Shown here piece by piece: positions 1,475 to 21,492 of a stretch of 21,981 nucleotides of DNA (within the stretch, counting starts at the first letter, position 1; every line of letters begins with the position of its first letter). Below the pieces are notes generated by a model. That model saw only the letters and a list, made by a program, of their open reading frames with translations. It was not told where the DNA came from and searched no databases. The stretch lies in IMG/VR virus record IMGVR_UViG_3300033145_002774, positions 1 through 21,981 of that record; one strand, given 5' to 3'. Source of the DNA: a virus. The position numbers were made by a program, and so were the translations under genes.

Positions 1475-2998
1475 ATGGCCGATACATTAAACAGTACGCT
1501 AACTTTTAGTGCAGTTGATATTTATAACGGCGGCGGAGCGGCGGTTGCTGTGTTAGCATATACAGGGCCGGTTAATACATCTCTGTTTTTTACGCCTATG
1601 CTTCAGTTAGACAATCTTAATGGAGCGGCGGCGGATATTACTGTCGAAGTCTGGTTAGCATACGCCAAGAATGATTTTTTCAAGTTTTATACTTCCGGGG
1701 CGGTATCAAAAGTCCCGGATGCTTCGGTAAAATTTATTTGGACTTATCCCAATGGAATTATACCCTTCATCAAACCAACCGCCGTCAAAGTGGAAATAAG
1801 AGTTCACAGCACAAACACAAATGATACCTCTGTTGATGGTTTTGCATGGCTACTAAATGCGAAAATGAATGGACCTTATTTGTTTGAAACGAAAGTATTA
1901 TCAGCACCAGATAATAAAACAGTTAATCTTATGTCAGTTGCTGGTTTTCAAGAAACAAACGATTGGTATATCAATCATTTGCTTGAAGTCGAAGACGCAG
2001 ATACTGGTACTTGTGTAATTCGGCGAGTTGTTGACCAAGTAGGCGTTCAGTTAATTTTGGAATCTGATTATCCATTTACTCCGGCGACAAGCGATAAAGC
2101 AAGGATGCTGAAAACATACTACGGCGATATTGGTACAGTTAACGGTGCAACGCCAATATCAACTTCTGATATTACGACCGCAATGGAGGCATCCGGCAGA
2201 TTATTATATGCTTTGAATGCGTTAACAGAAGCGGCGGGCGACGGCGATTTAGCGGCGATGAAAACTGCCGTTGATATAATTGATGTGAATGTAGAAGACA
2301 TTGAAGATGCAACGGTACAAGATGCTGCTGGAGAGAATATCGCGGCGGACATAATTGCATTGAAAGCAAAGGCAGACACTGTTGTAGCCGATGTTTGGGA
2401 TGAGGTTCTTACAGGTGCAACTCATAATGACCCCACTTCTGCGGGAAGACGTTTGCGGGCAATTGAAGATATTACTGTTCTCCGTGATGAGACCGCAGTA
2501 AGTGATGGTGGTGGTACTAATACAATTGAACTTGATGCAGGAGCAAGTGATGTTGTAAACTTCTATGCAGAAGATTGGATTATGCTTACTTCGGGCACAG
2601 GTATTGGTCAGATGCGACATATAGATTCTTACGACAAAGACACAAAAATCTGTATGGTTGGAGATGATTGGAATCCGGCTATTGACGGTAATGAAAAGTT
2701 TGTAATTTTAGCTCGCAGTTCAACGCATGTCCATCAGATAGAGCAGGAAGGACTCGACCAAATTGTCGCTGCTATGAAAGCCATGACAGGAATAACTGAG
2801 GGTGGAACAATGACTTGGGAAACCGTCATGAAAATAATGACTGCATTTATAGCAGGTAATTGGAGGGTGAAATCCGGAGATTCAACGAAACAAGAATTAC
2901 TTGATGCTGAAAATGGTACGACGGTTATTTTGGAGCAGTCGATAACTCGCTCCCCATCGGCTGGTAATAAGTATAGGGATATTACGGTGAAGATATGA
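1475..2998 (+). CDS. Phage virion appendage/tail protein with repeated beta domains
   Basis: This 507-residue protein has a good ribosome site (AAAGGA, 1462-1467, seven bases before the ATG). Residues ~1-130 form a beta-rich domain. Two related beta modules follow, roughly residues 140-215 and 335-415; the second contains SGTGIGQMRHIDSYD and DDWNP..DGNEKFVIL, a module often seen in phage fibre and baseplate proteins, where it reads like 'GTGxGQxRxIxxY'. Between them are a helical stretch (~225-300) and the segment VWDEVLTGATHNDPTSAGRR, a linker-like motif widespread in phage structural proteins. The final ~90 residues hold a short helix region and a beta end. It is probably a structural decoration, collar or fibre-type component; exact location in the virion is not known. 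It is rich in GCG alanine codons, unlike the genes from 2995 onward. Confidence 0.65.
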   Translation: MADTLNSTLTFSAVDIYNGGGAAVAVLAYTGPVNTSLFFTPMLQLDNLNGAAADITVEVWLAYAKNDFFKFYTSGAVSKVPDASVKFIWTYPNGIIPFIKPTAVKVEIRVHSTNTNDTSVDGFAWLLNAKMNGPYLFETKVLSAPDNKTVNLMSVAGFQETNDWYINHLLEVEDADTGTCVIRRVVDQVGVQLILESDYPFTPATSDKARMLKTYYGDIGTVNGATPISTSDITTAMEASGRLLYALNALTEAAGDGDLAAMKTAVDIIDVNVEDIEDATVQDAAGENIAADIIALKAKADTVVADVWDEVLTGATHNDPTSAGRRLRAIEDITVLRDETAVSDGGGTNTIELDAGASDVVNFYAEDWIMLTSGTGIGQMRHIDSYDKDTKICMVGDDWNPAIDGNEKFVILARSSTHVHQIEQEGLDQIVAAMKAMTGITEGGTMTWETVMKIMTAFIAGNWRVKSGDSTKQELLDAENGTTVILEQSITRSPSAGNKYRDITVKI

Positions 2999-3531
2999 GT
3001 TATGAAGTAATAGCTGAAACGATACCGGCAGTTACAGGTGGTCTTTTTAGTTTCGAGAGGGACCTTTCTGGGGCAGAGGATTCGGCTTTTGGTCGTTCGG
3101 TAATATCTATCTTAGCCTACTATATTATAAATACTCTATCACTTATGACGTTGCCAAGTGATGAGGGTAGTTGGCCATTGTACATTTCAAGTATGCCGGA
3201 TGGTGAAGATGTAAAAGTAGACTGTGGTTCCATTTATGATACCGCGGGAGTGTTGGACGGGAAATTATCAAATGGTAAGGTTGTGCAACACCCCGGAATA
3301 CAATTAAGAATTCGTTCAGATGATTATGAACAAGGGTATGCCAAAATAGAGGAGATAGCTTTGGCATTGGATGATGTTTGTTGGGATACCGTAGAGGTAG
3401 GTGGCGTTACTTATCTATTGGAAAATATAAGTAGGTCTACCCCTATTGTTCCTTTGGGGAGTGAAAGAGGATACCAAAGAAGATTTTTGTTTACAGTAAA
3501 CTTTTTGATAACATTGAAAAAAATAGTGTAA
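2995..3531 (+). CDS. Putative tail terminator (phage minor capsid/tail-completion family)
   Basis: The ATG overlaps the previous stop (ATGA, 2995-2998). At 178 residues the protein has the size and alpha/beta make-up of tail terminator proteins, which cap the tail tube and join it to the head. A segment near residues 95-125 (GIQLRIRSDDYEQGYAKIEE) is characteristic of a Gram-positive phage minor capsid/tail-terminator family: a strand with RxRxxDYxxG followed by a helix. The C-terminal strand (RRFLFTVNFLITL) is also typical. Its position directly before the tail tube gene fits the lambda order (terminator U, then tube V). The assignment rests on this motif plus position. Confidence 0.6.
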   Translation: MSYEVIAETIPAVTGGLFSFERDLSGAEDSAFGRSVISILAYYIINTLSLMTLPSDEGSWPLYISSMPDGEDVKVDCGSIYDTAGVLDGKLSNGKVVQHPGIQLRIRSDDYEQGYAKIEEIALALDDVCWDTVEVGGVTYLLENISRSTPIVPLGSERGYQRRFLFTVNFLITLKKIV

Positions 3532-3550: not shown

Positions 3551-3985
3551 ATGATGCCTACAGTAATGGAAGACGGCTACGCAACCAAAGTTGCATTTTC
3601 GGGTGCAGGTAGCAACATTGAAACCTATTTGTATGAGAAGGAAGTAACTCCTCCTGGGTTAGAAGGTGGTGGTCCTATTGATACAACCACCATGAGGAAT
3701 TCGGTTTATCGAACCCAACTTCCTAAACAGTTGAAAACCTTGTCTCCAGGCTCGTATGTTGGTGCATACGACCCTGATTTGTACACTGAGATTTTGTCGG
3801 CTGTGAATGTGAATCAGGAAATTGTCGTAACCTTCCCGGATGACAGCACTTTGACATTTTGGGGTTGGATTGACGAGTTCAAACCGAATCCTCTTGTTGA
3901 AGGAGAACAGCCAACTGCAAACATTACCATCATACCATCTAATTGGGATGGTAGTGCTGAGATAGCACCAGCTATGGGTCCGTAA
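3551..3985 (+). CDS. Major tail tube protein
   Basis: This protein of 144 residues (143 if the second ATG at 3554 is used) is the likely building block of the tail tube. The ribosome site AAGGA (3542-3546) lies four bases before the first ATG and seven before the second, so 3554 may be the true start. The sequence has the hallmarks of tube proteins: an early loop followed by TTMRNSVYRTQLPKQLKTLSPG, then alternating strands including ITVTFPDDSTLTFWGWIDEF-like segments and a 'PTANITIIPSN' strand. It sits between the terminator and the chaperone pair, as in lambda V. A 139-base gap follows, the longest non-coding stretch on the plus strand of this window, which fits a heavily expressed structural gene at the end of a transcript or just before a new promoter. 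Confidence 0.82.
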   Translation: MMPTVMEDGYATKVAFSGAGSNIETYLYEKEVTPPGLEGGGPIDTTTMRNSVYRTQLPKQLKTLSPGSYVGAYDPDLYTEILSAVNVNQEIVVTFPDDSTLTFWGWIDEFKPNPLVEGEQPTANITIIPSNWDGSAEIAPAMGP

Positions 3986-4091: not shown

Positions 4092-4124
4092 GCTAATCTT
4101 GAAATTTTTGGAAAGGACAGTAAA

Positions 4125-4526
4125 ATGAGTGAAGAACTAAGATTTAGTACAGTATTAAAAGAGGTTCCTGTATATTTAACAGGAAGTGATAATGTTGAAA
4201 AACAATTCACCTTGAAGGAACTGACTGGCAAGCAGCGGGCTCTTTATAATGACAGCTTTGATATTAAGTTTGAGATGGATGTAGAAGGTAAAGCCCGTGC
4301 TGTTGCTGGTGGAAATTTCAAATCTTTTTCAGCGAAGAAATTCTTAGCCTTATGTTTGTATGGTGAGGATGGTAAACTTGTCGCGGAATCGGTTATTGGA
4401 GGTTACCCCAGTACGATGCTTGCTAAATTACACGAAAGGGCATTATCGCTTAGTGGTTTAGACAAGGAAGCACTTGAAGCAGCAAAAAACGACTTAGAGG
4501 GGAGCAATACCAGTGGTTCCGAATAG
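4125..4526 (+). CDS. Tail assembly chaperone, G-like
   Basis: This 133-residue protein corresponds to lambda gpG: a small, mostly helical tail assembly chaperone that coats the tape measure protein before tube polymerisation. It is preceded by a strong ribosome site (GGAAAGGA, just upstream of the ATG). Its position between the tube gene and the tape measure gene, its length and the residue pattern (beta-rich start ending in a FTLKELTGKQRALY segment, then helices, then an acidic low-complexity tail) fit the family. The last codons contain the heptamer A AAA AAC in the zero frame, the site at which a fraction of ribosomes is expected to slip to give the G-T form (4490-4864). The version ending at 4526 is the unshifted product. 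Confidence 0.82.
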   Translation: MSEELRFSTVLKEVPVYLTGSDNVEKQFTLKELTGKQRALYNDSFDIKFEMDVEGKARAVAGGNFKSFSAKKFLALCLYGEDGKLVAESVIGGYPSTMLAKLHERALSLSGLDKEALEAAKNDLEGSNTSGSE

Positions 4527-4532
4527 CTTCTC
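4484..4532 (+). promoter_or_regulatory. Programmed -1 ribosomal frameshift signal
   Basis: The heptamer A AAA AAC (4484-4490) is in the right phase: zero-frame codons are GCA AAA AAC. Eight bases downstream, GGGGAGC (4499-4505) can pair with GCTTCTC (4526-4532), giving seven pairs including two G-U, with a weak ACC/GGT pairing inside the loop. A heptamer plus a stem at this spacing is the standard -1 signal. The -1 frame is open from here through 4861 and encodes T-domain-like sequence from the first codons. The slippery site is seen directly; the structure is a hand-folded prediction. Confidence 0.88.
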
Positions 4533-4864
4533 ACTTAAAGATGTCCGTACAAAGGGCGAAGTTTGAGGTTACTTCTACTGAGTTCGTAGGTTGGGTTGCT
4601 TATTTAGACAATGAGGAAATGGTTAATGTTTCTAAGGAAGATTACTATCTTGCTAATATTGCCGCTGAGATGCGACGGTCTTACGTTAAGCATCCTGAAA
4701 GAGTGAAAATAGAATCTTTCTTGATGAAATTTAAAAATGTGGGCCAGGTAAGTAAACCAAAAACAAAAAAGAGTAAGAAAGAAAGAACAAAGAAGGCTAA
4801 GGCATTTTGGTGTGGTTTTTTAGGTATTAAGAACAAGGAAAAAGAAAATGGGACCAACACTTGA
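4490..4864 (+). CDS. T extension of the G-T tail chaperone (made by -1 frameshift; fusion is 4125-4864)
   Basis: Read in the -1 frame after slipping at 4484-4490, this adds 124 residues to the first 122 of the G protein, giving a fusion of about 246 residues. The first codons encode QYQWFRIASHLKMSVQRAKF and then STEFVGWVAYL, which matches the usual start of T domains (W..LA..L.M...., then S.EF..W.AY). The match begins upstream of the ATG at 4541, and that ATG has no good ribosome site, so independent initiation at 4541 is unlikely. In lambda the T domain recruits tube subunits to the tape measure-chaperone complex. The last ~40 residues are strongly lysine-rich. It overlaps the tape measure start by 17 bases. 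Confidence 0.85.
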   Translation, partial: RLRGEQYQWFRIASHLKMSVQRAKFEVTSTEFVGWVAYLDNEEMVNVSKEDYYLANIAAEMRRSYVKHPERVKIESFLMKFKNVGQVSKPKTKKSKKERTKKAKAFWCGFLGIKNKEKENGTNT

Positions 4865-7448
4865 CCTTGGAAATTTACTTGTACACTTGAGGGCGGACGC
4901 TACTCAATATATGTTGATGATGGGTAAGGCCGAGGCTCGAATGCGTTTGATGTCTCAGCGGATGATAACAATCGGCAGGACCATGTCTTTGTACATAACT
5001 GCTCCACTTTTGCTTATGGGTGGGGCATCTGTTAAGGCTTTTGCTTCCTTTGATGATGCCATGACCAAATCGTTGGCAATAATGACAGGTATTACTCCTC
5101 AATTAAGGAAGGAGATGGGGGAGTTGGCATTAGAGATTTCCAATAGGGGTGTTATCTCAGCTACAGATTTGGCAAGGAGTTACTTTTACTTAGCGTCGGC
5201 TGGACTTGACGCCAAACAATCAATGGCTGCCTTAGGCACTGTTGAAAGATTTGCGGTGGCAGGTGCTTTTGATATGGCAACGGCTACAGACTTGGCAACA
5301 GATGCTCAAAGTGCTTTGGGGTTAACAGTTAAAAATGCTCAAAAGAATATGATAAACATGACAAGGGTGACTGATGTTTTGACAGGAGCAAACACACTTG
5401 CCAATGCCACTACGGAACAATTTTCCTTAGCATTAACCTCACAAGCTGGCCCGGCAATGAAGGCTTATAATATAGAGTTGGAAGAAGGTGTGGCTGTATT
5501 GGCTGCCTATGCTGACCAAGGCATTAAGGCACAGCGAGCTGGTAATATGATGAGTAGAATGATTCGGTTGATGACAAAAGGATTTAAAGACCATCGAGGG
5601 GCTTGGGAGCGATTTAATATTGACATATACGATACGACTGGAGAATTAAAACCTTTGTGGACTATTGTAGGAGATTTGACAAGGGCATTGGGAGATATGT
5701 CAACTGAACAGAAAGTTGCCGCTCTTCAGATGCTTGGCTTCCAAGCTCGTTCTCAACAAGCCATACTTCCTTTAATGGGATTGGGAGACAGGATAAAGGA
5801 ATACAATGATGAACTTTTGAAAATGGGAGGAATTACAGAAACAGTAACACAGAGGCAGTTAAAATCCTTCTCATCACAGATGAAGATTTTATGGAACCAA
5901 ATTAGGAATGTTGGTATTGGTATTGGGAGTATATTAGCACCAGCTCTTCTCTCGTTGAATGAAAAGATTAGGAGGGCAGTGGCATATTGGAATTTGCTGG
6001 AGGAGAGTAGTAAGAGGAATGTGATTGCCTTTTTGTTAGTAGCCGCAGCAATTGGGCCTGTTTTGATAGCTACAGGTTTACTTCTTAAACTTTTTGCCTT
6101 TATGATTGCCACCGTCAATGTTCTTGCCGTTTCTTTTGTAGGGTTAGCGACAGCAATGTTTGGCCCAATTGGGGTTGCTTTGTTATTAGCAGCAATAGCT
6201 TATACTTTAAGAGCTGCTTGGGTTCAAAATTTGCAGGTTATTAAGAATAGAATGGAAGATTGGTTTAATGCTTTTAGTGAAGGCTTTGATTGGCTTATCA
6301 ATCATGAATTGACTCAAGGCCTTATAGAGTTTGGAAGACAATGGGTGGAATTATTCAAGTTTGTTGGTTCTCAAGCTGATAATTTTATAATAAATTTAAT
6401 ATCCCATCTAACTGGTGCATGGGCATGGTTAAAAAAAGTAAAGGATGGGATAGTGAACGGATGGGATGCCCCTACTTTTAGTCAAATGATAAATGAGTTT
6501 AAGAGAGGATTTGAAGAAGCTGGTGATGCTTGGGCTGGTGCTTTTTTAGCGGGAAATGAAAAAGCAGAAAAGGCTTTAGAAGATTTTAAAAAAATAGTTA
6601 TAGTGGGATATAAAGCTACCAGTATACAACTTGAGGGTTTTGGGAAGGCTACTGTTGAACATCTTCAAGAATTGTTGGAAGCAGTGAAAGTTCAATTTGG
6701 TCAGGATGCTGATGCTTTAATTGCTTTGATACAAAGTAAGATGCTAAAGTTGAAAGGAGAAAATCCTTTAGGATTGAATCCTGCTGATATAGCTGAATTA
6801 GAAAATGCAATGCAAAAAGTTACGAAACGGACTAAGGAATATAACAGAGAATTGGAAAAAATGAAAACACCTATACAAGAGTGGATGGATACTGCTCAAG
6901 ATGTTTCAACGCGAGTAGGGGAGGCATTTGCAAATACTTTTCAAAGAATGGGTGATACATTGGCAGATTTTTTGATAGAGGGGAAAGCAGATTTTAAGAG
7001 TTTTGCTAAGGCTGTGTTGAAAGATTTATTAGCCATACTAATAAGGGCTCAAATGGTACGAGCCTTAACCGGTTTGTTTCCTGGTTTAATGCCTGGTGCC
7101 TCTTCAGCGGGTACTGTTCCAGCTGGTCAAATGCCCACAGCAGTTGGTGCCGGAGAAATGTGGATGGGAATGCCAATGCATCAAGGTGGGATTGTTCCAA
7201 GGTTGCATGGTGGATTAAAATCAGATGAATTTCCTGCTATTTTACAAGCTGGTGAAACAGTTATTCCAAAAGGAGGTGGGTTAGCACCGCCAAATATTGT
7301 TATAAATAATAATACAGGGCAAGCCTTTAAACAAGATGGGGAACCCAAGTGGAATGGTAGAGAATGGGTTGTTGGAATTATAACTGAAGAAATAAATCAA
7401 TATGGACCTTTAAGGCATACTATTCAGGGGATAGGACAAAATGGCTGA
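4848..7448 (+). CDS. Tail tape measure protein
   Basis: At 866 residues this is a tape measure protein of the TP901/lambda H type. It sets tail length and is carried inside the tube until DNA injection. Residues ~1-60 include a helix and an early hydrophobic stretch (MSLYITAPLLLMGGA). Residues ~65-350 are the TP901 core, with FASFDDAMTKSLAIM, ATDLARSYFYLASAGLDAKQ and the QTEQFSLAL-like region. Residues ~390-455 hold several hydrophobic segments that could insert into the host membrane. Residues ~650-745 are coiled-coil and lambda H-like (FKSFAKAVLKDLLAILIRAQ). The end carries HQGGIVPRLHGGLKSDEFPAI and GETVIPKGG, also typical of the family. At the usual ~0.15 nm per residue, the tail would be about 130 nm long. 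The start overlaps the T frame; the ribosome site is AAGGAAAAAG-like. Confidence 0.93.
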   Translation: MGPTLDLGNLLVHLRADATQYMLMMGKAEARMRLMSQRMITIGRTMSLYITAPLLLMGGASVKAFASFDDAMTKSLAIMTGITPQLRKEMGELALEISNRGVISATDLARSYFYLASAGLDAKQSMAALGTVERFAVAGAFDMATATDLATDAQSALGLTVKNAQKNMINMTRVTDVLTGANTLANATTEQFSLALTSQAGPAMKAYNIELEEGVAVLAAYADQGIKAQRAGNMMSRMIRLMTKGFKDHRGAWERFNIDIYDTTGELKPLWTIVGDLTRALGDMSTEQKVAALQMLGFQARSQQAILPLMGLGDRIKEYNDELLKMGGITETVTQRQLKSFSSQMKILWNQIRNVGIGIGSILAPALLSLNEKIRRAVAYWNLLEESSKRNVIAFLLVAAAIGPVLIATGLLLKLFAFMIATVNVLAVSFVGLATAMFGPIGVALLLAAIAYTLRAAWVQNLQVIKNRMEDWFNAFSEGFDWLINHELTQGLIEFGRQWVELFKFVGSQADNFIINLISHLTGAWAWLKKVKDGIVNGWDAPTFSQMINEFKRGFEEAGDAWAGAFLAGNEKAEKALEDFKKIVIVGYKATSIQLEGFGKATVEHLQELLEAVKVQFGQDADALIALIQSKMLKLKGENPLGLNPADIAELENAMQKVTKRTKEYNRELEKMKTPIQEWMDTAQDVSTRVGEAFANTFQRMGDTLADFLIEGKADFKSFAKAVLKDLLAILIRAQMVRALTGLFPGLMPGASSAGTVPAGQMPTAVGAGEMWMGMPMHQGGIVPRLHGGLKSDEFPAILQAGETVIPKGGGLAPPNIVINNNTGQAFKQDGEPKWNGREWVVGIITEEINQYGPLRHTIQGIGQNG

Positions 7449-7795: not shown

Positions 7796-8677
7796 ATGCG
7801 AGATTTGCCCCCTAATATTATTTTGGAAAAGAACAAGTTAGCCACTCCAAATTCATGGTTAATATTATTAAAGATAACTTTGAATGATATTGGTGGTACA
7901 GTCCTAAGATTTGTTCGAAATAATGAGGATATAGATTTTAATGACGACATTGATAATAGTGCCAGCGTGAGTGAAACCTATACTGCATTTCCTTTTGAGA
8001 TAGAACCAACTAAGAATATGAATAAAGGTCAAATTCCCACAGTTACATTAAAGGTAAGTAACATTACAAACTTATTGGAACCATATCTTGAAAGTTTAGA
8101 TGGTGCTATTGGTTCGACAGTTAAAGTTACTGTGGTTAATTCTGGCAGATTAACAGAAATGTACAGTGAACTTGAATTAACCTATGATGTTATTGCCTGT
8201 AATAGTACAGTACAATGGGTAACATTCATTTTGGGAGCTCCTAATCCACTGCGACAAAGATTTCCGTTGCATAAATTTTTGGCTTTGCATTGTCGCTACC
8301 AATATAAAGATGTTGAAGACCAAATAGGACCGAGGTGTCAGTATGCAGGTAAAACCATAACTGGTATTACAAAGGGAGCCAATACTGAAGTTAGTGTTAC
8401 AGATTGTGGCTTTGAAGTTGATGATGTTATTAAATTTGCCGACGTAGGGGGGATGACCGAAATAAATGGAGAGAGTGGTAAAGTATTAGATGCGTCTTCC
8501 GCTGGAAATGTTTTTACAGTTGATATAGATAGTGATACATTTTCAAATTATACGTCGGGAGGTAGATGTGGATATGCAACCTGTAAAAAAACTTTGGTTG
8601 AATGTAGGGAACGAGAGAATTCTGTAAACTTTGGTGGGTTCCCAGGAATTCGTTCCGGAACTGTGAGGATAGCATAA
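7796..8677 (+). CDS. Minor tail protein L-like, iron-sulfur type, with inserted beta domain
   Basis: This 293-residue protein has a good ribosome site (AGAGG, six bases before the ATG). Residues ~1-160 form the beta-rich domain of L-like tip proteins (FPFEIEPTKNMNKGQIPTVTL; ending in FILGAPNPLRQRFP). The C-terminal part carries the cysteines expected of the lambda L iron-sulfur domain: C166, C181, then C263 and C270 (six residues apart), followed by NFGGFPGIR, a signature ending. C204 and C258 are extra. Between C181 and C258 is an inserted ~75-residue beta module (ITGITKGANTEVSVTDCGF, DDVIKFADVGGMTEINGES) resembling the FCCH-like module found in many phage proteins. Lambda L is known to bind a [4Fe-4S] cluster; binding here is inferred. 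The stop overlaps the next start by one base (TAATG). Confidence 0.82.
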   Translation: MRDLPPNIILEKNKLATPNSWLILLKITLNDIGGTVLRFVRNNEDIDFNDDIDNSASVSETYTAFPFEIEPTKNMNKGQIPTVTLKVSNITNLLEPYLESLDGAIGSTVKVTVVNSGRLTEMYSELELTYDVIACNSTVQWVTFILGAPNPLRQRFPLHKFLALHCRYQYKDVEDQIGPRCQYAGKTITGITKGANTEVSVTDCGFEVDDVIKFADVGGMTEINGESGKVLDASSAGNVFTVDIDSDTFSNYTSGGRCGYATCKKTLVECRERENSVNFGGFPGIRSGTVRIA

Positions 8678-9111
8678 TGACTATGAACTGCGATGATTTA
8701 TTAGGCAAACCATTTGAGAAGGGTGGTGATGGAAAGGTTGGTTATGATTGTTATACACTATCTCGCGAAGTATGTAAAAGGGCAGGAATAGATTTACCCA
8801 TAAAAGAAACACAAATATTGGCAGCCTTTGAGAATTTAAAAGCGAGAAGTGATATAATAAATAATGGTAAGGATGAGGATTATATTAGACTTGAAAAACC
8901 TGAACCTTTTTGTATTGTTGGGTTTCAATTGTGTCCTCCATTTTTAAATCATATGGGAGTGATGTTGGATAAGCATCATTTTATTCACATTATGGAAAAA
9001 CGGTCAGTAACTATTGAGAAAATAGACCATAAATTTTGGAAGAGCAAAGTTGAGGGCTTTTACAGATATGCCAATACGAATGATAACAATAAAGAATCCG
9101 TTCAATCGTAA
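8677..9111 (+). CDS. NlpC/P60 tail peptidase, K-like
   Basis: This 144-residue protein is a cysteine peptidase of the NlpC/P60 type that in lambda-like phages is the K tail protein, needed for tip assembly and possibly peptidoglycan cleavage. The opening LLGKPFEKGG, then YDCYTL, places the catalytic cysteine at C25; NHMGVML places the catalytic histidine at H92, and H104 (HHFIHI) is a reasonable third residue. Unlike lambda K, there is no N-terminal JAB/MPN metalloprotease half, so this is the peptidase domain alone. The ribosome site GAGGA is seven bases before the ATG. Its 3' end overlaps the I-J gene, which starts about 44 bases before its stop. Confidence 0.82.
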   Translation: MTMNCDDLLGKPFEKGGDGKVGYDCYTLSREVCKRAGIDLPIKETQILAAFENLKARSDIINNGKDEDYIRLEKPEPFCIVGFQLCPPFLNHMGVMLDKHHFIHIMEKRSVTIEKIDHKFWKSKVEGFYRYANTNDNNKESVQS

Positions 9112-12652: not shown

Positions 12653-13306
12653 GTGAATAATGAAGTTTTCATAATAGGTGGGGGTTCAAGTCTAAAAGGA
12701 TTTCCCTTTAGCCAGTTGAAAGATAAGGATACTATTGCTGTCAATGTGGCAGCTTTTGATGTTCCAAATCCTACATACTGTATCACAGGTGATTCTGGTA
12801 TCTTTCGTAAAATACAGGAAGGATATTTCAAAGACATAAAAACTACCTGGATAATGGTAACTAACTTGCTCCACCCTAAAATGAAATGGAAGGATGGTAG
12901 GTTTAAGCATACCCAGTCAGGTTATGTTTACAATCTATTTTGTGTTGATATGCTTATTAGGAGTAGTGGCTTGGAAGGGATTGGTTTTTCTTTCAATGAT
13001 TTTAAGACAGGATATAATAGTGGCTTTTGTGCTTTTCAGTTGGCTGTCTTGTTACGATATAAAAAAATATATTTATTGGGTATAGATTTGTGCAAAGGAT
13101 TAAGAACGACTCATTACCACAAGCGGTATGGGACGACTAAAAAAATAGATGATAAACTCCTCGATAGATTTTATGATAATTTTGTCTTAGCCTTAAAGAT
13201 TATGAAACAGGAATCTGATATAGAGGTTATATCCTGCTCACCCGTAAGTAGATTGAACGAGTTTATTCCATATCAAGCCTTTAATACCTTGGAGGGAGTA
13301 AAATGA
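12653..13306 (+). CDS. DUF115/sialyltransferase-like protein, first gene of the carbohydrate cassette
   Basis: This 217-residue protein uses a GTG start with a clear ribosome site (GGAAAGGA, nine bases ahead), the same box as before the G chaperone gene. It is a Rossmann-like protein: EVFIIGGGSSLKGFPFSQL at the start, a 'pTYCITGDSGIF' strand (~residues 42-50), and LLGIDLCKG (~140-148). The combination of GxGxSL, an N-terminal 'iavN.a' segment (TIAVNVAAF) and a late GID motif recalls the DUF115/MptE-like and GT42 sialyltransferase-like families, which handle nucleotide-activated sugars. It has no signal peptide or membrane span. It begins a run of ten genes with almost no gaps (its stop overlaps the next start by four bases). 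Substrate is unknown. Confidence 0.6.
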   Translation: MNNEVFIIGGGSSLKGFPFSQLKDKDTIAVNVAAFDVPNPTYCITGDSGIFRKIQEGYFKDIKTTWIMVTNLLHPKMKWKDGRFKHTQSGYVYNLFCVDMLIRSSGLEGIGFSFNDFKTGYNSGFCAFQLAVLLRYKKIYLLGIDLCKGLRTTHYHKRYGTTKKIDDKLLDRFYDNFVLALKIMKQESDIEVISCSPVSRLNEFIPYQAFNTLEGVK

Positions 13307-14154
13307 AATCCATATCAATTGTAATGACTTATTTTAATAGGCCCATTCAATTGGCCTTAACATTGAAGAGTCTTGAAAAATCTTCTCTTATACAAGACAC
13401 TCAAATCATTATAGTAGATGATGCCAGTGATGAGGATAAGAGGGCTTTGCCTGTGGTGACACAGAGTGCCTTAAATGTAGACTTGATTGAGGTTACCAAA
13501 GAGAAGAAGAAGTGGCGAAGTTCTTGTATAGCCTACAATATGGGGTTTAGGAAAGCAACAGGTGCGATAATTATAATCCAAAATGCTGAGTGTTTGCATA
13601 TTGGTGATTTACTTTTACATGCAGTCAATAATGTTACCAATGAAAACTATCTATCCTATTCTTGTTATGCTATAGACTATGAAACAACCAAGGAAATACG
13701 AACTCTTTGGGATACTAATTTTGAAGAGGTGTTAAATATACTTGATGGACTACAACAAAGTCATCCTGAACTTGCAAATTGGATGGGTTGGTATAATCAT
13801 ATTAAGTATCGACCTGCAGGACTTCATTGGTTGTCAGCAATTACAGCACAGAATTTAAAAGAGTTGGGAGGGTTTGATGAGAGATATAAGTATGGTTTTG
13901 GTTACGATGACAATGATTTACTTTTACGAGTTATGATTAAGGGTTTGCAAGTTAAAATAGTTTCTAAAAAGGTGGGATATGCAGTACACCAACGCCATCC
14001 ACGAGTTGACAGGTATGCAAGTCTTAGGAATTGTCGTGGAAAAGATAATCGTAAATTATTTTTTGAGTTGAAAGCAGAATACGAAGAAGCACAAGGTAAA
14101 GAGTTTGGTGGCCATTATGATAAAAAAGGTTCTGTATTTCTTTTGGAGCGGTAA
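13303..14154 (+). CDS. Family 2 glycosyltransferase (first of two related copies)
   Basis: This 283-residue GT-A fold enzyme is probably cytosolic. The nucleotide-binding start is ISIVMTYFNRP, and the VDDAS motif places D39 and D40 at the nucleotide site. The sugar-site strand reads GAIIIIQNAECLHIGD instead of the usual DxD; the second GT2 gene in the cassette carries SPECLH at the same place. Later motifs are LHWLSAITAQNLKELGGFDE and YGFGYDDNDLLLRVM, the GGFDE/ED region that carries the catalytic base in the family. The end (~residues 225-283) is a positively charged helical extension. ATG overlaps the preceding stop by four bases. The exact sugar is not predictable from sequence. Confidence 0.82.
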   Translation: MKSISIVMTYFNRPIQLALTLKSLEKSSLIQDTQIIIVDDASDEDKRALPVVTQSALNVDLIEVTKEKKKWRSSCIAYNMGFRKATGAIIIIQNAECLHIGDLLLHAVNNVTNENYLSYSCYAIDYETTKEIRTLWDTNFEEVLNILDGLQQSHPELANWMGWYNHIKYRPAGLHWLSAITAQNLKELGGFDERYKYGFGYDDNDLLLRVMIKGLQVKIVSKKVGYAVHQRHPRVDRYASLRNCRGKDNRKLFFELKAEYEEAQGKEFGGHYDKKGSVFLLER

Positions 14155-14986
14155 TAAGATGTCTTGGATGAGGTATATGACTTTATACTCTTTCAGGATA
14201 TTGAATCCCGATTGGGAGGTGGTTCTCTTTTTATCTCGGAATAATGTTCATTCTAAAACTTGGAAGGACAGCCCTACTCAAGATTTTTATAATTATAAGG
14301 GAGAAGATTATTTGGGTATGGTAGAAGATTTAGGAATTACTATTTTGAGATGGGAGTTACTAAATGAGTTTGTTGATATGGATGCGAGTAAAGTAGGTCC
14401 TTCACATAAAAGTAATTTTTTCAAATGGCAAAAAATGGCTATATGCTCAGGATTTTACTGTGACCTTGATGTTCTTTTTGTAAGACCATTTGATAGTTTG
14501 TATCTTGAATGTTCTCATTCAGATGTTTTAATAGCCCATCATAATTATTGGTCAATTGGTTTACTTGGCTCCTCTGGGGAGAACAGGTTTTTTGAAGATT
14601 TATATAAACATACCTTTGAAATTTATACTGAAGAAGCCTACCAGTCAGCAGGGGTTCATTCTGTTGACTCCTGGTGTGATATTTTGAAAAAAGATGAAGA
14701 AATCGACAAGCGTGAAAATCTCAATGTTGTTAAAAATCATTATTGTGATTTACAATTTTATAATTTGGAAATGTCTCGAATATATCCTTGGCGATATAAT
14801 CAGATGGAGCATGTCTTTGCTCAACAGCATACCAGAGTGCCTCAGGATTGTATAGGAATTCATTGGTATGCTGGTGATTTGACTTCTCAAAGGTACAATA
14901 ATATTATGGAAGAATCAAACCTTAAAAAGTTTACCAATACCTATAGTTATTTTGCACAAAAACTATTGAAGAAAGGAAGGATTTAA
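14117..14986 (+). CDS. GT32-like glycosyltransferase (DxD sugar-binding type)
   Basis: About 289 residues from the ATG at 14117; a frame-extending TTG at 14105 is less likely because the MIKKVLYFFWSG start is exactly where the family begins. The opening 'hyfW.G...s.....l.Sf...nPdW.v' (LYSFRILNPDWEV) is typical of GT32 and capsular sugar transferases, and the DxD motif is clear at D116 and D118 (YCDLDVLFVRPF), where a manganese ion and nucleotide sugar bind. A late motif GIHWYAGD resembles the family's 'H...gSW' end. It overlaps the preceding glycosyltransferase by 38 bases, which implies coupled expression. Confidence 0.8.
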   Translation: MIKKVLYFFWSGNKMSWMRYMTLYSFRILNPDWEVVLFLSRNNVHSKTWKDSPTQDFYNYKGEDYLGMVEDLGITILRWELLNEFVDMDASKVGPSHKSNFFKWQKMAICSGFYCDLDVLFVRPFDSLYLECSHSDVLIAHHNYWSIGLLGSSGENRFFEDLYKHTFEIYTEEAYQSAGVHSVDSWCDILKKDEEIDKRENLNVVKNHYCDLQFYNLEMSRIYPWRYNQMEHVFAQQHTRVPQDCIGIHWYAGDLTSQRYNNIMEESNLKKFTNTYSYFAQKLLKKGRI

Positions 14987-14987
14987 A

Positions 14988-15827
14988 ATGATTTCAATTG
15001 TTATGCCTTACAAGAATAGAAGAGTATTGTTGATTCGGACATTGCATACTATAAGTAATTCCGTAGAAAAGGATTTGGAAATAATTATAGTAGACGATGC
15101 CAGCGATGATGGTGAAAAGGTTCTTGACCTTGTGGATATGTTTGATATGAATATCAAGGTGATAGAAATAACTAAAGAACAGCGAACGTGGAATAGCTGC
15201 TCCATTCCTTTTAATATAGGGTACAAAGCAGCCCGAGGTGATATCATACTTATGCAAAGTCCCGAATGTCTGCATGTTGGAGATGTGTTGGCTTATACTA
15301 AAGCTCATATCAATAATGAAAATTATATATGTTTTGCCTGTTATGCCATATCTGAAGAGAACATGAAGCACTTTAAGCGTATTGACTTTCTAAAGGAAAG
15401 GGTTAATCGGTTGCTCCGCAAACTTATTAGAGCTTGTGGCACCATGCCTTTGATGGAAAGAAGTCGTGGGCGGCAAGGTAACATTTGGTATTGTCATCCA
15501 AGACATCGGTCTTGGGCTCCACATTTTACATCGGCTATGATGCGAAAGGTTTTACTTGAGGAGTTTGGAGGACTTGATGAAAGGTACAAAGATGGTTGTG
15601 ATTATGAAGATATGGAATTTTATCATCGCATAGATAAATCAAATGTGGAGATTATAGTTCCTGACCCAACGGAAGCTCCTTTTGTTATTCATCAATTTCA
15701 TAAGGGGACAAATCAAATTAGGGATAAGAAAAAAGTACAGATGAATGCAGACTTGTACAATAACGTGACTACGAAAGAAGAGGGGTGGTTGGTTAATGAT
15801 AAGGAAGGAATTTTAGAAGATGAATAA
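14988..15827 (+). CDS. Family 2 glycosyltransferase (second related copy)
   Basis: This 279-residue protein shares its layout with the copy at 13303-14154. Shared points include ISIVMPYKNR, VDDASDD (D36, D37), a TKE(Q/K)..W(N/R)S.(C/S)I..N.G segment, a (Q)SPECLHVGD strand, GGLDERY and the late HQ region. The two are most likely an old tandem duplication separated by the GT32-like gene. An insertion near residues 125-160 (RVNRLLRKLIRACGTM) is absent from the other copy and is basic, which could alter substrate choice. A strong ribosome site (AAGGAAGGA) precedes the ATG by a short spacing. Its end overlaps the radical SAM gene by eight bases. Confidence 0.82.
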   Translation: MISIVMPYKNRRVLLIRTLHTISNSVEKDLEIIIVDDASDDGEKVLDLVDMFDMNIKVIEITKEQRTWNSCSIPFNIGYKAARGDIILMQSPECLHVGDVLAYTKAHINNENYICFACYAISEENMKHFKRIDFLKERVNRLLRKLIRACGTMPLMERSRGRQGNIWYCHPRHRSWAPHFTSAMMRKVLLEEFGGLDERYKDGCDYEDMEFYHRIDKSNVEIIVPDPTEAPFVIHQFHKGTNQIRDKKKVQMNADLYNNVTTKEEGWLVNDKEGILEDE

Positions 15828-16785
15828 AAATTCTTACTCTTCTGCGGATATTTCAATACCTGTCAAAATCCTTCATGATTTGGAATTAATCAAAGGAATG
15901 AAGAACCACAAACATATATTGCTCCGCCATCTACAGCTTTCTGTAACCAATAAATGTAATCTTAAATGTAGATATTGTTCTTGTAGTGATGTGGATAGGC
16001 AGCTTGAGCTTGACATAGAAAGGATTTTTATAATTCTACAAAAGGCAAAGCAGGCGGGGTGTATATCAATTACAATAACAGGCGGGGGTGAAACATTGTT
16101 GCATTCTAAGATAAATGAGATTATTAGGGAATGTAAAAGGCTTGGTATTTTGGTAGGGTTTGTTACAAATGGTATATTATTAAATAGATTAGAAGAGGAT
16201 GTCGGGTGGTGTAGAATTTCTTTTGACAGTGACCGAGTCTTTTCTTCAGAATTTGCTAATGGTATTGAGAAGACAGCAAAAAGACTTTCCAAAACTGATT
16301 GGGCTTTTAGTTTCGTAATAATAGATGATAGCCTAAAAAATGATTTTGGAGATTTAAAGAGATTGGTAAAGTTTGCAAATGCATCAAACTTTACTCATGT
16401 AAGGGTAGTGGTTGATATATTCCACCCAGATGAATCTTTGATAGTACAAGCTCGTTCCATTTTAAAAGGAATAGATGGGCGAGTGTTTTATCAAGCTCGT
16501 AACCATTCAACAAAAGGAACCAAAAGATGTTGGGTTAGTTTATTGAAACCTACAATAGGTACTGATGGTAATATTTATCCTTGCTGTGGTGTTCAATATG
16601 CCATAAACAGTTCTAAGAAAGATTTTAATCCCAAAATGTCTATGGGAAGGGGAGAAGACATTGTAGATATAATTGAACGGCAAGATTGCTTCGATGGTTC
16701 TGTTTGTGATGTTTGTTATTATCAAGGCTATAATAATGTCCTATCACTATTGTTAAAAGATATAGAGCATAAGGAATGGTTATGA
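15820..16785 (+). CDS. Radical SAM enzyme with SPASM/Twitch-type auxiliary cluster
   Basis: This 321-residue enzyme has the radical SAM signature CNLKCRYC (C46, C50, C53), which binds the [4Fe-4S] cluster that cleaves S-adenosylmethionine, and the GGGETLL motif that contacts SAM. In the C-terminal part, C237-X12-G250-X4-C255 matches the CX(9-15)GX4C pattern of SPASM/Twitch domains (KPTIGTDGNIYPCC), and C296 and C299 (CDVC) complete an auxiliary cluster. Family members oxidise or cross-link peptides, or dehydrogenate sugars and cyclitols. With no precursor peptide nearby and glycosyltransferases on both sides, a sugar substrate is the more likely one (inference). It overlaps both neighbours by a few bases. 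Confidence 0.85.
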   Translation: MNKNSYSSADISIPVKILHDLELIKGMKNHKHILLRHLQLSVTNKCNLKCRYCSCSDVDRQLELDIERIFIILQKAKQAGCISITITGGGETLLHSKINEIIRECKRLGILVGFVTNGILLNRLEEDVGWCRISFDSDRVFSSEFANGIEKTAKRLSKTDWAFSFVIIDDSLKNDFGDLKRLVKFANASNFTHVRVVVDIFHPDESLIVQARSILKGIDGRVFYQARNHSTKGTKRCWVSLLKPTIGTDGNIYPCCGVQYAINSSKKDFNPKMSMGRGEDIVDIIERQDCFDGSVCDVCYYQGYNNVLSLLLKDIEHKEWL

Positions 16786-17651
16786 AACGATTACTAAACA
16801 TTGTTGGTGAAAATAAGGGATGGGCAATTCCAAATCGGGCAAAGAATCTCGCTCCCTATTTGAAAGAATATTTTGATATTACAGATTATTTCAAATGGGA
16901 CCTACCAGATAATTTTAACGATTATGATTTAATCCATATGCATCATCCTGTTTTGAATGAGAAGATACTTGGTATCAATACTGTGTGGGGGTTTGAAGCA
17001 TCCTCGGAGAGATTACTACCGAAGATTCTTAATAGTGGTATTTGTGAGAAGGCTAATTTTATAATTGCCAAGAATAAAAACATACATAAAATCCTGTATC
17101 CAAAATATAGAACTTGTCATCTTATGTCAAACGGAGTGGACACAAAATTGTTTAAACCAAACCCAATTAGAGTAGGGTGGGTAGGAAATGATTCCAGTAG
17201 TAAGGAATATGAAATATATAAGGGAACAGATTTGATTGGGCAGGCTTGTGAAAAATTGAATACTGACTTGCAGGGATTATTTAATATCGTATTTGTGAAA
17301 GACCCATCTCAATATCCTGCTATATTTCCACAGGAGAAAGTTGTGGAGTTTTATAAAACACTTGATGTGTTTGTTTTGGCAAGTGAGGCGGAAGGAAGTA
17401 GTAATGTGGTATTGGAGGCTTTGGCTATGGGGATACCTGTCGTAACAACCAAGGTTGGTAATTGGGAACACCTTGCCAGATTTGGAGCGGTTATACTTGT
17501 GGAAAGGACTGTTGAAGCAATAAAGGAAGGAATACAAATAGCCATTCAGGAAAAGATTACACAAAGGAGGATGGTGGAACAAAGTTATAATTGGGCAAAT
17601 CATGCCAAACAATACCTTAAAATTTACAAGCAAGTAGGAATTGTGTTATGA
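16782..17651 (+). CDS. Family 4 glycosyltransferase (retaining, GT-B)
   Basis: About 289 residues from ATG 16782, which shares ATGA with the preceding stop and has AAGGA (16771-16775) six bases ahead; the ATG two codons earlier lies directly against that site and is less likely. The C-terminal domain carries the GT4 nucleotide-sugar motifs: SNGVDTKLFKP, then EAEGSSNVVLEALAMGIPVV, where E204 and E212 form the EX7E pair, followed by TTKVGN. The N-terminal domain is short for the family (~110 residues), with a DLIHMHHP segment. Retaining chemistry with an activated hexose donor is usual. The enzyme is in the same transcript as the radical SAM gene and the ATP-grasp gene that follows (ATGA overlap). 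Confidence 0.87.
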   Translation: MKRLLNIVGENKGWAIPNRAKNLAPYLKEYFDITDYFKWDLPDNFNDYDLIHMHHPVLNEKILGINTVWGFEASSERLLPKILNSGICEKANFIIAKNKNIHKILYPKYRTCHLMSNGVDTKLFKPNPIRVGWVGNDSSSKEYEIYKGTDLIGQACEKLNTDLQGLFNIVFVKDPSQYPAIFPQEKVVEFYKTLDVFVLASEAEGSSNVVLEALAMGIPVVTTKVGNWEHLARFGAVILVERTVEAIKEGIQIAIQEKITQRRMVEQSYNWANHAKQYLKIYKQVGIVL

Positions 17652-18607
17652 AAATATTTGGATATATAGATTCTGTTAACCAAGGTTGGAACGACCTTCT
17701 TATAGCAGCCGGGAAAAAATTAGGTGTTCCTGTTACTTCTTTCACACGGGCAGACGAAGTACCTGATGAGGAAGACGTGGCCGTCTTTGTTCATATGTCC
17801 CATTATCCTATCGCAAGGAGAGAGTATGATAAGCAGATGATGGAGGACTTGGCTAAGAAAAGTAAAATACATCTCATTCCAAATCGTCTTGAGGGTCAAT
17901 TGTATGACAATAAGATTTTACAATACCAAACCTTTGACGGTTGGATGCCAAAAACTTATTATGAAACCTCCTATGAAAAGGCTAAGAAGTTGGCAAAAAC
18001 TATAAAATATCCTTTTGTATCTAAGGCTTCTGAGGGGGCAGGTTCTTCCAATATTCGATTTATACAAAATAGGGAGCAGGCGTTGGCAGAAGCAAGAAAG
18101 GCCTTTTCTGACGATGGCATAATTTTGTGGATAAAAAATAGACAAAAAGGATATGTTTTATGGCAAGAATATCTTCCTCAAGTAAAAGGAAATGATTGGC
18201 GAATTGTTTTAATTGCTAAAAAATATGCAATGATAAAAGAGAGATTTATTAAGGATAAAAATCATCCGTTTGCTTCTGGAAGTGATAAGTTTAGAACGGT
18301 TTTTAGTTTGAATGATGATTTACGATTGCTTCTTAATCATACCTATGCGTTCGCTAATGAATTTGATTTGACTTTAGTATGTGTAGACATTATATATGAT
18401 GCTGATGGAAAGCCTATTATTTTAGAGAACAGTAACGGTTGGGGAATGTATGCCTATCGTGATTGCCCTTGGTTTGAGAAAAACCTAAGTAATTATTGGC
18501 CAAAGACGAAATACGTTGGAGACGATATGTTTGAGATTGTTGTAAAGGCTATTATGGAAGATAAAGAAATGCTTATGAAATGGTGTGTAAGAAAATGGCA
18601 AAATTAA
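17648..18607 (+). CDS. ATP-grasp ligase (RimK-like)
   Basis: This 319-residue enzyme joins a carboxylate to an amine or other nucleophile through an acyl-phosphate. The ATP-grasp core is visible: YPFVSKASEGAGSSNIRFI (the glycine-rich loop region), WQEYLP (hinge), NDWRIVLIAKKYAMIKERF (central strand with the conserved R), and a metal-binding end VDIIYDADGKPIILENSNG (E and N of the EN-N motif). The N-terminal domain (~residues 1-90) is a Rossmann-like pre-ATP-grasp. In the cassette it could attach an amino or carboxylic acid to a glycan or activate a peptide carrier. It overlaps both neighbours, so expression is coupled. The substrate is unknown. Confidence 0.8.
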   Translation: MKIFGYIDSVNQGWNDLLIAAGKKLGVPVTSFTRADEVPDEEDVAVFVHMSHYPIARREYDKQMMEDLAKKSKIHLIPNRLEGQLYDNKILQYQTFDGWMPKTYYETSYEKAKKLAKTIKYPFVSKASEGAGSSNIRFIQNREQALAEARKAFSDDGIILWIKNRQKGYVLWQEYLPQVKGNDWRIVLIAKKYAMIKERFIKDKNHPFASGSDKFRTVFSLNDDLRLLLNHTYAFANEFDLTLVCVDIIYDADGKPIILENSNGWGMYAYRDCPWFEKNLSNYWPKTKYVGDDMFEIVVKAIMEDKEMLMKWCVRKWQN

Positions 18608-19494
18608 AAGTCGCTTTTGTTTTTGATAAAGATAATAGAGGTCTAACCGGTCGTTGGTTTACTAACAATGCCTATAGGTTTTTTATGAAAGGTTTGTTTG
18701 AGAATGAAAGCATCGAGGCGTGTTCTTTCCCAACCGAACAGGAATTTGATTGTAACCAGGTTGCAAAGTTTGATGTCGTTATTTTTTATGACATACGCAA
18801 ATCGGTATATAAAAATGCAGATAGAATTAAAGGTGTCTCAATATCAAGGGCACCTGACAGCCACGATATAGATGATAAGTGGATTAGAATAGCAGACGAA
18901 CTTTCTATATCTCATTGTTTCAATCACCAATCAATTAAATACGCCAAAAAGTTTTTACCAAATAGAATTGCTTATCATCAAATCATATTTGGTGTTACTA
19001 AGAACTTACACAGAAATCCAAACTTTGACAACAGGATAAAAGATTTCATTTTACTTCCAGGCATTTCAAATAAAAGCCATTATTATATCTTAAGATATAA
19101 ATGTTTTGGATTACCCTATGTTGACGGTAAGACCCGTGAAGCTGGTTTTGTAAATGACGAATTTCCTGTTCTACTTGGTAAATACAGAGCGGCTATTGCT
19201 GCTTGTACCGTGTGTTCTGTTTATAAATACTTTGAGCTTCCAGCCTGTGGATGCTTAACTTTTATGGAAGTAAATTCTGAAAACGGTTGTGATGAATTGG
19301 AATTCATAGACGGTCACAATGCAATATTTATAAATGATAATAATTACATTGATAGATTCAAATCGTATTTACATGATGTCGATAATCCTAAATGGAAAAC
19401 TATCGCAGCCGCCGGAAGAGAATTTGCTCTGAGGAAATACGAAAATAAAATTCAAGTCCAAAAACTTGTAAGTATTATGGAGAGTCTGGTATGA
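18595..19494 (+). CDS. GT1/GT-B-like glycosyltransferase
   Basis: About 299 residues from ATG 18595 (MAKLKVAFVFD); an upstream ATG at 18580 would add five residues. The C-terminal half matches the Glyco_trans_1_2-type GT-B domain: KYFELPACGCLTFMEVNSENG, ELEFIDGHNAIF and AAAGREFALRKYENK. These motifs bind nucleotide sugar in spore-maturation CgeB-like and related enzymes. The N-terminal half has a short Rossmann-type start and an IKGVSISRAPDSHDID region. It has no membrane span. It overlaps the ATP-grasp gene by 13 bases and the next gene by four. Confidence 0.72.
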   Translation: MAKLKVAFVFDKDNRGLTGRWFTNNAYRFFMKGLFENESIEACSFPTEQEFDCNQVAKFDVVIFYDIRKSVYKNADRIKGVSISRAPDSHDIDDKWIRIADELSISHCFNHQSIKYAKKFLPNRIAYHQIIFGVTKNLHRNPNFDNRIKDFILLPGISNKSHYYILRYKCFGLPYVDGKTREAGFVNDEFPVLLGKYRAAIAACTVCSVYKYFELPACGCLTFMEVNSENGCDELEFIDGHNAIFINDNNYIDRFKSYLHDVDNPKWKTIAAAGREFALRKYENKIQVQKLVSIMESLV

Positions 19495-20132
19495 AAGTGC
19501 TTGGTGTGTTTGCCCACCCAGATGACGAAACCATATTTGGTTGGCCTATCTTTCAAGATGCTTCCATTGATAGGCACCTTATAATATGTGTAGATACTTA
19601 TCAAAATTATGGCACGGTGAAAGTCGAAGCTATTGAAAAGGTATGTAAAATGGAGGGGATAAAGTTGGAGTGGGTAGGGCATAATGATGGTCGACATTAT
19701 AGAATGATTAGAGATGAGAACAATCCAACATCTCCTGTAGGTGCAATAGAGGTGTTGACAAGCAACATAATAAAAACAGCGAAACGAATTAAACCTGATT
19801 ACATTTTTACTCATAATTTTTGGGGTGACAACGGTAATAGTGAGCACAAACTTGTTTCAGAAATTGTAATAAACCATTGTTTGGATTTTGATATACTGAT
19901 AACCAATCGGTGTGAACACAATAAAATGTGGTTATCATATAAGTCTATCCCAAGAATGAATCGAGAATTTTTTGTTGATAGTAATATGTTTAAGATATGT
20001 ATTTTGGATGCAGGGTTTTATTTGCGGTGCAAAAGGATATATGATGATTGTCAAATGTGGACAGGTAACACTTCCATTCCACCAAAGTATCCTGAAAAGG
20101 AATCTGTATTGTACCGTTTGAGAAAGAGATAG
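19491..20132 (+). CDS. PIG-L/LmbE-type zinc deacetylase
   Basis: This 213-residue protein is an N-acetyl-sugar deacetylase of the PIG-L/LmbE family. The AHPDDE motif puts zinc ligands at H9 and D12, and D11 is the usual general base; H108 (THNFWGD) and H119 (NGNSEHKLV) supply the remaining ligand and support. Family members remove acetyl groups from GlcNAc-linked lipids, mycothiol precursors or aminoglycoside intermediates. In this cassette it would expose an amine that the ATP-grasp ligase could acylate (inference). The start is an ATGA overlap with the preceding gene. Confidence 0.88.
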   Translation: MKVLGVFAHPDDETIFGWPIFQDASIDRHLIICVDTYQNYGTVKVEAIEKVCKMEGIKLEWVGHNDGRHYRMIRDENNPTSPVGAIEVLTSNIIKTAKRIKPDYIFTHNFWGDNGNSEHKLVSEIVINHCLDFDILITNRCEHNKMWLSYKSIPRMNREFFVDSNMFKICILDAGFYLRCKRIYDDCQMWTGNTSIPPKYPEKESVLYRLRKR

Positions 20133-20136
20133 ATAT

Positions 20137-20781
20137 ATGAAACCTTTTATTATAGTAGGCTACTTTACCAAAGGAACTTTTTACGAAGAGCATACTCAAA
20201 CTCTCGTAGAGTCTTTAGAATTGTATGACATACCTTATTACATAGAAGGTATTGAAAGTTTGGGAGATTGGTATAAAAATGTCAACTACAAACCTACTTT
20301 CATAAAGAGGATGATGGAGAAGTTTCCTGATTGTAATATCGTATATGTTGATTGTGATGCTAAGCTCTTTGGGTGGCCAAAACTGTTTGGGGAGATAGAG
20401 GCTAATATAGCTGTTCATCTATTTGACAAAAGCCATTTCAATAAGAGTTTACAAGGATTTGAAGTTCTTAGTGGAACCATCTTTTTAAGTAACACAGATG
20501 AAACTTATGAATTGGTGAAGAGTTGGGAAAAATTATGCAAGGAGAAACCACACCAATTTGACCAAAAGTCTCTGGAGAAGATATTGAATGGTAATTTTTA
20601 TAATTTACCAGAAGCATATTGTATGATATGTAACATATTGAAACCTGCTGCAAAAGCTATTATTGTTCACTACCAAGCAAGTCGTAAAATAAGAAGAAAT
20701 GGTGGGAAAATTTTAAAGAGTATATTGCGGGAACCGTTACCCCAGGTCCTTTCCAAAAGAACAAGTACCACCAAACGCTGA
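20137..20781 (+). CDS. DxD nucleotide-sugar transferase, last gene of the cassette
   Basis: This 214-residue enzyme has a GT-A-like DxD motif (YVDCDAKL, D72 and D74) preceded by 'KPTFIKRMMEKFPDCNIV', the set-up of the family in which a helix 'kp.fi...l...p...vlYvDaDa' leads into the metal-binding strand. A GFEVLSGTIFLSNT segment and an HQFDQKSL motif near residue 148 also fit. The last ~35 residues are basic. The ribosome site is weak (GAAAGAGATAG), and only four bases separate it from the previous stop. Its 3' end overlaps the minus-strand 58-codon gene by 45 bases, so the two transcription units collide here. Confidence 0.7.
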   Translation: MKPFIIVGYFTKGTFYEEHTQTLVESLELYDIPYYIEGIESLGDWYKNVNYKPTFIKRMMEKFPDCNIVYVDCDAKLFGWPKLFGEIEANIAVHLFDKSHFNKSLQGFEVLSGTIFLSNTDETYELVKSWEKLCKEKPHQFDQKSLEKILNGNFYNLPEAYCMICNILKPAAKAIIVHYQASRKIRRNGGKILKSILREPLPQVLSKRTSTTKR

Positions 20782-20922: not shown

Positions 20923-21492
20923 CTATAACTTAATAACCTTTCCTGTTTGAAATGCTATTTCGTGTGTAACTACAATGAATTGAACATTGAAATCTTTGGC
21001 CAAATCTTCTAACAGTATTCTCACCCGCTCTCTATTTTCCATATCTAAGTTTTTAAAAGGCTCATCCATTATCATTATTCTTCTTAGACGGGGTTTGGAC
21101 AAAACGATACTGGACAACCGTAATGCCAGGGAGGCAACATCCACCACTCCTCCACTATCAGAATTTAATACATCTCCTATTTCATGTTCGTGTCTTAACA
21201 ATAGTAGGTTGGCTTCTGTCCTTCCTCTTTTCCTTTCAAAGTGTATTTTGAAACCGTATTCATTTCCAAATACAGCCTCCAAACACTTACTAACAACACC
21301 CTCTATTCTTTTATGGGCTTGTTGCTGTACCATTTGGGCCACTTGCTGCGTGATGGTTTGGGCTTCTTTAATGTTCTCCAATCTTTTCTTTGCTTCCTTA
21401 AGGTTTCTTTTTTCTTCTCTACCTTGTCTTTTGGCAGTATTTAATTCTCCAAGTAATGAATCAACTTTTTTTCTGGTTTTAATTATATCCAT
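20923..21492 (-). CDS. Carboxy-terminal half of a Rad50/SbcC-like ATPase
   Basis: This 189-residue protein starts with a coiled-coil stretch (~residues 5-60, many K/E repeats), then an ATPase lobe. It carries the ABC signature loop with S113-G114-G115 (LNSDSGGVVDVASLALRL), Walker B RIMIMDEP (D143, E144), the D-loop LD (D150) and the H-loop histidine H177 (VVTHE). These are the carboxy-terminal ATPase half of Rad50/SbcC/gp46-type recombination proteins. There is no Walker A, which must come from a separate amino-terminal half, presumably upstream on this strand beyond the window. A stop lies in frame shortly upstream of the ATG and no other start is available, so it is not a frameshifted extension. 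The ribosome site is weak. Confidence 0.8.
   Translation of the reverse strand: MDIIKTRKKVDSLLGELNTAKRQGREEKRNLKEAKKRLENIKEAQTITQQVAQMVQQQAHKRIEGVVSKCLEAVFGNEYGFKIHFERKRGRTEANLLLLRHEHEIGDVLNSDSGGVVDVASLALRLSSIVLSKPRLRRIMIMDEPFKNLDMENRERVRILLEDLAKDFNVQFIVVTHEIAFQTGKVIKL

Follow-up and report, generated by a model that had tools for sequence, protein, structure and literature searches.

Long-tailed phages widely conserve a -1 frameshift that yields the tail assembly chaperones G and GT (PMC5009743). Phage lambda produces gpG and gpGT in a ratio of about 30:1, with G binding the tape measure and T binding the tail tube subunit, and neither protein is found in the virion (PMC5009743). In E. coli, the slip site A_AAA_AAC shifts far less readily than A_AAA_AAG, but it is used for the G-T shift of the haloarchaeal virus HCTV-2 (PMC5009743).

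We analyzed a stretch of 21,981 nucleotides of viral DNA (positions 1 to 21,981 of IMG/VR record IMGVR_UViG_3300033145_002774; hereafter, the window), with all coordinates on the plus strand unless stated otherwise. Its likeness to lambda lies in the gene order G-T-tape measure, a predicted -1 shift near the end of G, and G and T proteins that are collinear with their lambda counterparts, although the identity to lambda G and T is very low (16-19%). The slip sites differ (G_GGA_AAG in lambda, A_AAA_AAC in the window), as does the distance from the slip site to the end of the zero-frame stop, which is 36 nt in the window and 18 nt in lambda. Read by the same script, lambda GGGAAAG is followed by three residues and then by GE, as is the heptamer of the window. 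With HCTV-2, whose host is an archaeon, the likeness is the heptamer A_AAA_AAC, compared by slip site. The efficiency of the shift in the host of this phage is not predictable, because A_AAA_AAC shifts less readily in E. coli yet is used by HCTV-2.

The slippery heptamer (4484-4490) was read directly from the sequence. The zero frame of the ORF at 4125-4526 runs ...GCA AAA AAC GAC..., which splits the heptamer into A AAA AAC, the correct phase for tandem -1 slippage, as an earlier note on this DNA had stated. Unshifted G ends at a TAG stop (4524-4526). In the -1 frame, no stop occurs between 4478 and a TGA (4862-4864), and joining this frame to G gives exactly 246 aa, the length that had been put at about 246 residues. 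Across the 22 plausible plus-strand ORFs of the window, XXXYYYZ heptamers occur in frame 31 times; the -1 opening spans 2-51 codons after 30 of them, and 126 codons only after the one at 4484.

The zero-frame product G (4125-4526; 133 aa) was assigned as a tail assembly chaperone based on PHROG 344 and predicted-structure matches. It is preceded by AAGGA (4113-4117), probably its ribosome-binding site, the context of which (GGAAAGGA) is common to close relatives. PHROG 344 ('tail assembly chaperone') was matched by G in 4/4 members of the family (best 6.3e-8), and a profile alignment with lambda G was collinear (E 3.2e-4 in a single comparison). A tblastn search of 50,697 phage records with G gave no match. 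AF2 was run on G and T as separate chains, and the model of G had a mean pLDDT of 77. In Foldseek, the first and second PDB matches of this model were chains of 2OB9, the HK97 tail chaperone (probability 0.99, E 0.01 and 0.05), and VIA-align gave Z scores of 6.5 for Bacillus subtilis YqbN (3KLU) and 5.8 for 2OB9, with the next entry at 2.8. These two best structural matches share 13-15% sequence identity with G, at modest TM-scores of 0.41-0.53. Going by these profile and model matches, G resembles known tail chaperones in both homology and predicted fold.

The T domain (4490-4864; 124 aa plus stop) lies in the -1 frame and is predicted to be translated only as the G-T fusion, its assignment drawing on PHROG 337, Phage_tail_T and AF2. 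PHROG 337 was matched at 2.2e-7 by the T of the window and at 2.5e-13 by the best member. Pfam Phage_tail_T (PF06223) was matched by 4/4 members (best 8.1e-7), and the window's own T scored 18-20 bits on this profile, under the curated cut-off of 25.9. The profile alignment with lambda T was collinear (E 8.4e-4, again a single comparison). The T-domain identity that the earlier note had proposed for the -1 frame is thus borne out by PHROG 337, by the Phage_tail_T matches of family members and by the lambda T alignment. The model of T had no useful match in the PDB, and its best viral match in BFVD, a 'Minor tail T domain-containing protein', had an E-value of only 0.22.

Relatives were searched in IMG/VR by single-protein scans and then by alignments of the first four sequences. 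T homologues were detected at 26 loci (23 non-redundant) from many independent metagenomes, with identity down to 35%; scanning genome contigs for a host or prophage revealed no relative. A slippery heptamer is in register at the same codon in all 26 loci, each time within the zero frame of a G-like ORF, and this conservation rules out a chance heptamer at 4484. With the window counted, the heptamer of the 24 non-redundant sequences is AAAAAAC in 19, GGGAAAC in four (L025, L028, L034 and L037) and AAAAAAA in one (L019), all of which permit -1 re-pairing. A scan with the sole pattern EDYYLA[QN], located well 3' of the ATG at 4541, recovered 22 of the 26 loci, and the heptamer is therefore not a product of the search. 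The segment from the heptamer to +66 aligns without gaps in the family. Past the heptamer, the zero-frame tails terminate at differing stops; in many relatives, the G stop is one codon past the heptamer, and in L032 it follows immediately.

Outside this set, the tail chaperones gp21/gp22 of Streptomyces phage PHTowN showed a weak similarity to T (30.5%) that starts from T residue 1, with an E-value of 0.1 that is not significant alone. An in-frame GGGAAAC (L038:1492-1498) lies just upstream of T, ahead of its -1 frame, and the tape measure comes next. The PHTowN record annotates gp21 and gp22 as two separate genes, and this layout suggests that they too probably represent an unannotated frameshift.

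One alternative involves no frameshift: translation of T as its own protein would begin at the ATG at 4541, by reinitiation or coupling after the G stop. This ATG (T codon 18) is the sole possible early start in the window and sits about 15 nt past the TAG stop, and the same T codon is ATG or TTG in 14/23 non-redundant relatives. However, no Shine-Dalgarno sequence was found upstream of it, and a start at this position would remove a confidently predicted AF2 helix (T4-16, pLDDT 93-98) along with four (G4, W9, A13 and L16) of the seven T columns that are invariant in the alignment of 24 sequences. The relatives were also examined for a T encoded from its own start, with none identified; the start codon is absent from this position in 9/23, and L035 is without ATG, GTG or TTG across the first 30 T codons. 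Moreover, a separate T gives no reason for an in-frame slippery heptamer kept in every relative. We consider this alternative very improbable. As far as sequence conservation and the predicted helix can tell, T has no independent start and the -1 coding begins at the slip site; the suggestion that T-like coding begins before the ATG has held up.

Downstream of the heptamer, a possible stimulating stem is formed by GGGGAGC (4499-4505) and GCTTCTC (4526-4532), with 7 pairs including two G-U and a spacer of 8 nt. The 5' arm is kept in close relatives, and the 3' arm is GCTTCCC in most of them, giving the pairing GGGGAGC/GCTTCCC. The stem belongs to the minimum-free-energy structure of 4491-4540. 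In the window, at -8.4 kcal/mol, it showed no extra stability relative to dinucleotide shuffles (-8.7 kcal/mol; z 0.13) and was no better than chance relative to synonymous-codon shuffles (z +0.16 and -0.5 in two versions). The seven-pair stem eight bases downstream, as described in the earlier note, is thus present, but at this locus it is no more stable than shuffled sequence.

At the family level, a hairpin appears to be under selection. With the T protein fixed and codons drawn from the usage of each locus, the 51 nt right after the heptamer had a mean folding z of -2.23 over the 24 sequences, 79% of which were below -1 (Wilcoxon p 4e-6, for sequences that are not independent). The control mean z values ranged from -0.6 to +0.4 for ten later T windows and from -0.5 to -0.1 for four G windows, and when codon usage was pooled, as in an earlier version, the mean for the 51 nt was -2.15. 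These 51 nt fold markedly better than the synonymous-codon controls, which points to selection for a hairpin in the family. Elsewhere in the family, the helix is shifted by a few bases, as in L029 (GGTGCGAAGCT/AGCTTCGCACC), L035 (AGCGGCGAGC/GCTCGCCGCT) and L027 (AGGTGAG/CTCACCT). The helix is not fixed to alignment columns, and accordingly no covariation at fixed columns was detected: the only 3 pairs that RNAalifold proposed carried no compensatory changes, and counting pairs showed no gain over shuffles. Tentatively, and at somewhat less than even odds, the hairpin may be kept for its stability and not its position; its sliding from relative to relative, by several bases, would then follow from a double duty of the sequence, which also encodes the conserved first T helix and, in many relatives, the end of G. 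An upstream Shine-Dalgarno-like stimulator as in dnaX was also considered and rejected, as the anti-SD pairing equalled the synonymous-codon null (mean z 0.06).

The six consecutive A's inside the heptamer raise another alternative, in which RNA polymerase slips on the A run and a mixed mRNA pool encodes the fusion. A run this short would not be expected to support efficient polymerase slippage, and the GGGAAAC of four relatives keeps ribosomal re-pairing while leaving just three A's. A-to-G swaps that keep re-pairing in both sites are predicted by ribosomal tandem slippage and not by polymerase slippage, and the apparent selection for a downstream hairpin also argues against the latter, which we regard as an extremely improbable source of the fusion. 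A sequencing or assembly error splitting one continuous gene, for which an A run is a typical spot, is in practice already refuted by the relatives, given that 26 loci from many independent metagenomes, the GGGAAAC loci among them, share the two-frame layout at the same codon and that their zero frames end at differing stops past the heptamer.

The genes around G and T were also profiled. The tail tape-measure protein (4848-7448; Pfam PhageMin_Tail 1.5e-29 and Tape_meas_lam_C 5.6e-16, PHROG 1533 1.5e-58) is the expected client of G/GT. Its strongest E-values to named phages include those to haloarchaeal Halorubrum viruses (2e-30 and 3e-30) and Streptococcus phages. In the window, T and the tape-measure gene share 17 bases (4848-4864); in close relatives, T ends with TAA just ahead of the tape-measure ATG. 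Upstream of G, a tail terminator protein was identified at 2995-3531 (Pfam Phage_tail_terminator_6, 7.5e-9). The ORF at 3551-3985 had no family match in Pfam or PHROG; its position between the tail terminator and the chaperone suggests that it is probably the major tail protein, and the T domain is expected to partner with its product. Further downstream, an NlpC/P60 peptidase (8677-9111; 3.7e-9) lies between lambda L-like and J-like genes, which is the position of lambda K. Directly past the tail module, about ten enzyme-like genes (12653-20781) make up a glycan- or small-molecule-like cluster that is unusual for a phage, with two GT2 and two GT1-type glycosyltransferases, a DXD sugar-binding GT-like protein, a radical SAM protein, an ATP-grasp protein and a PIG-L deacetylase. 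An ORF on the minus strand (20923-21492) has an ATPase-like C-terminal motif (MIMDEPFKNLDMENRERV) and is SbcC/SMC-like by eye.

Homology, synteny, heptamers at the same codon, T conservation upstream of the ATG and the family-level stem all fit a lambda-like G/GT programmed -1 frameshift at A_AAA_AAC, and from this sequence evidence we put the probability that it explains the locus at about 0.96. The earlier description of the frameshift as textbook is fair, the lambda trick being long known.

For the phage of the window, we infer the occurrence of the shift, its rate and the roles of the proteins as follows. Most ribosomes would read G and terminate at the TAG stop, producing an abundant 133-aa chaperone. 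In a minority, the tRNAs on AAA and AAC of A_AAA_AAC would slip back by one base to pair with AAA AAA, and the shifted ribosomes would go on in the -1 frame to make the 246-aa G-T fusion. The hairpin about 8 nt downstream probably increases the shift rate. If the proteins work as in lambda, the G portions would cover the tape-measure protein and the small number of T domains would bring in the tail tube subunit, allowing the tube to polymerize at the right ratio and length.

For annotation, G should be called together with the joined G-T fusion in this uncultured phage group, and T should keep the residues before its first ATG; the advice in the earlier note against annotating two separate genes was right. 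The 24 diverged, ungapped sites provide a set for studying the tuning of A_AAA_AAC or G_GGA_AAC with a downstream hairpin. The mechanism itself has long been known from lambda, and here it appears to be conserved in a family of environmental phages.
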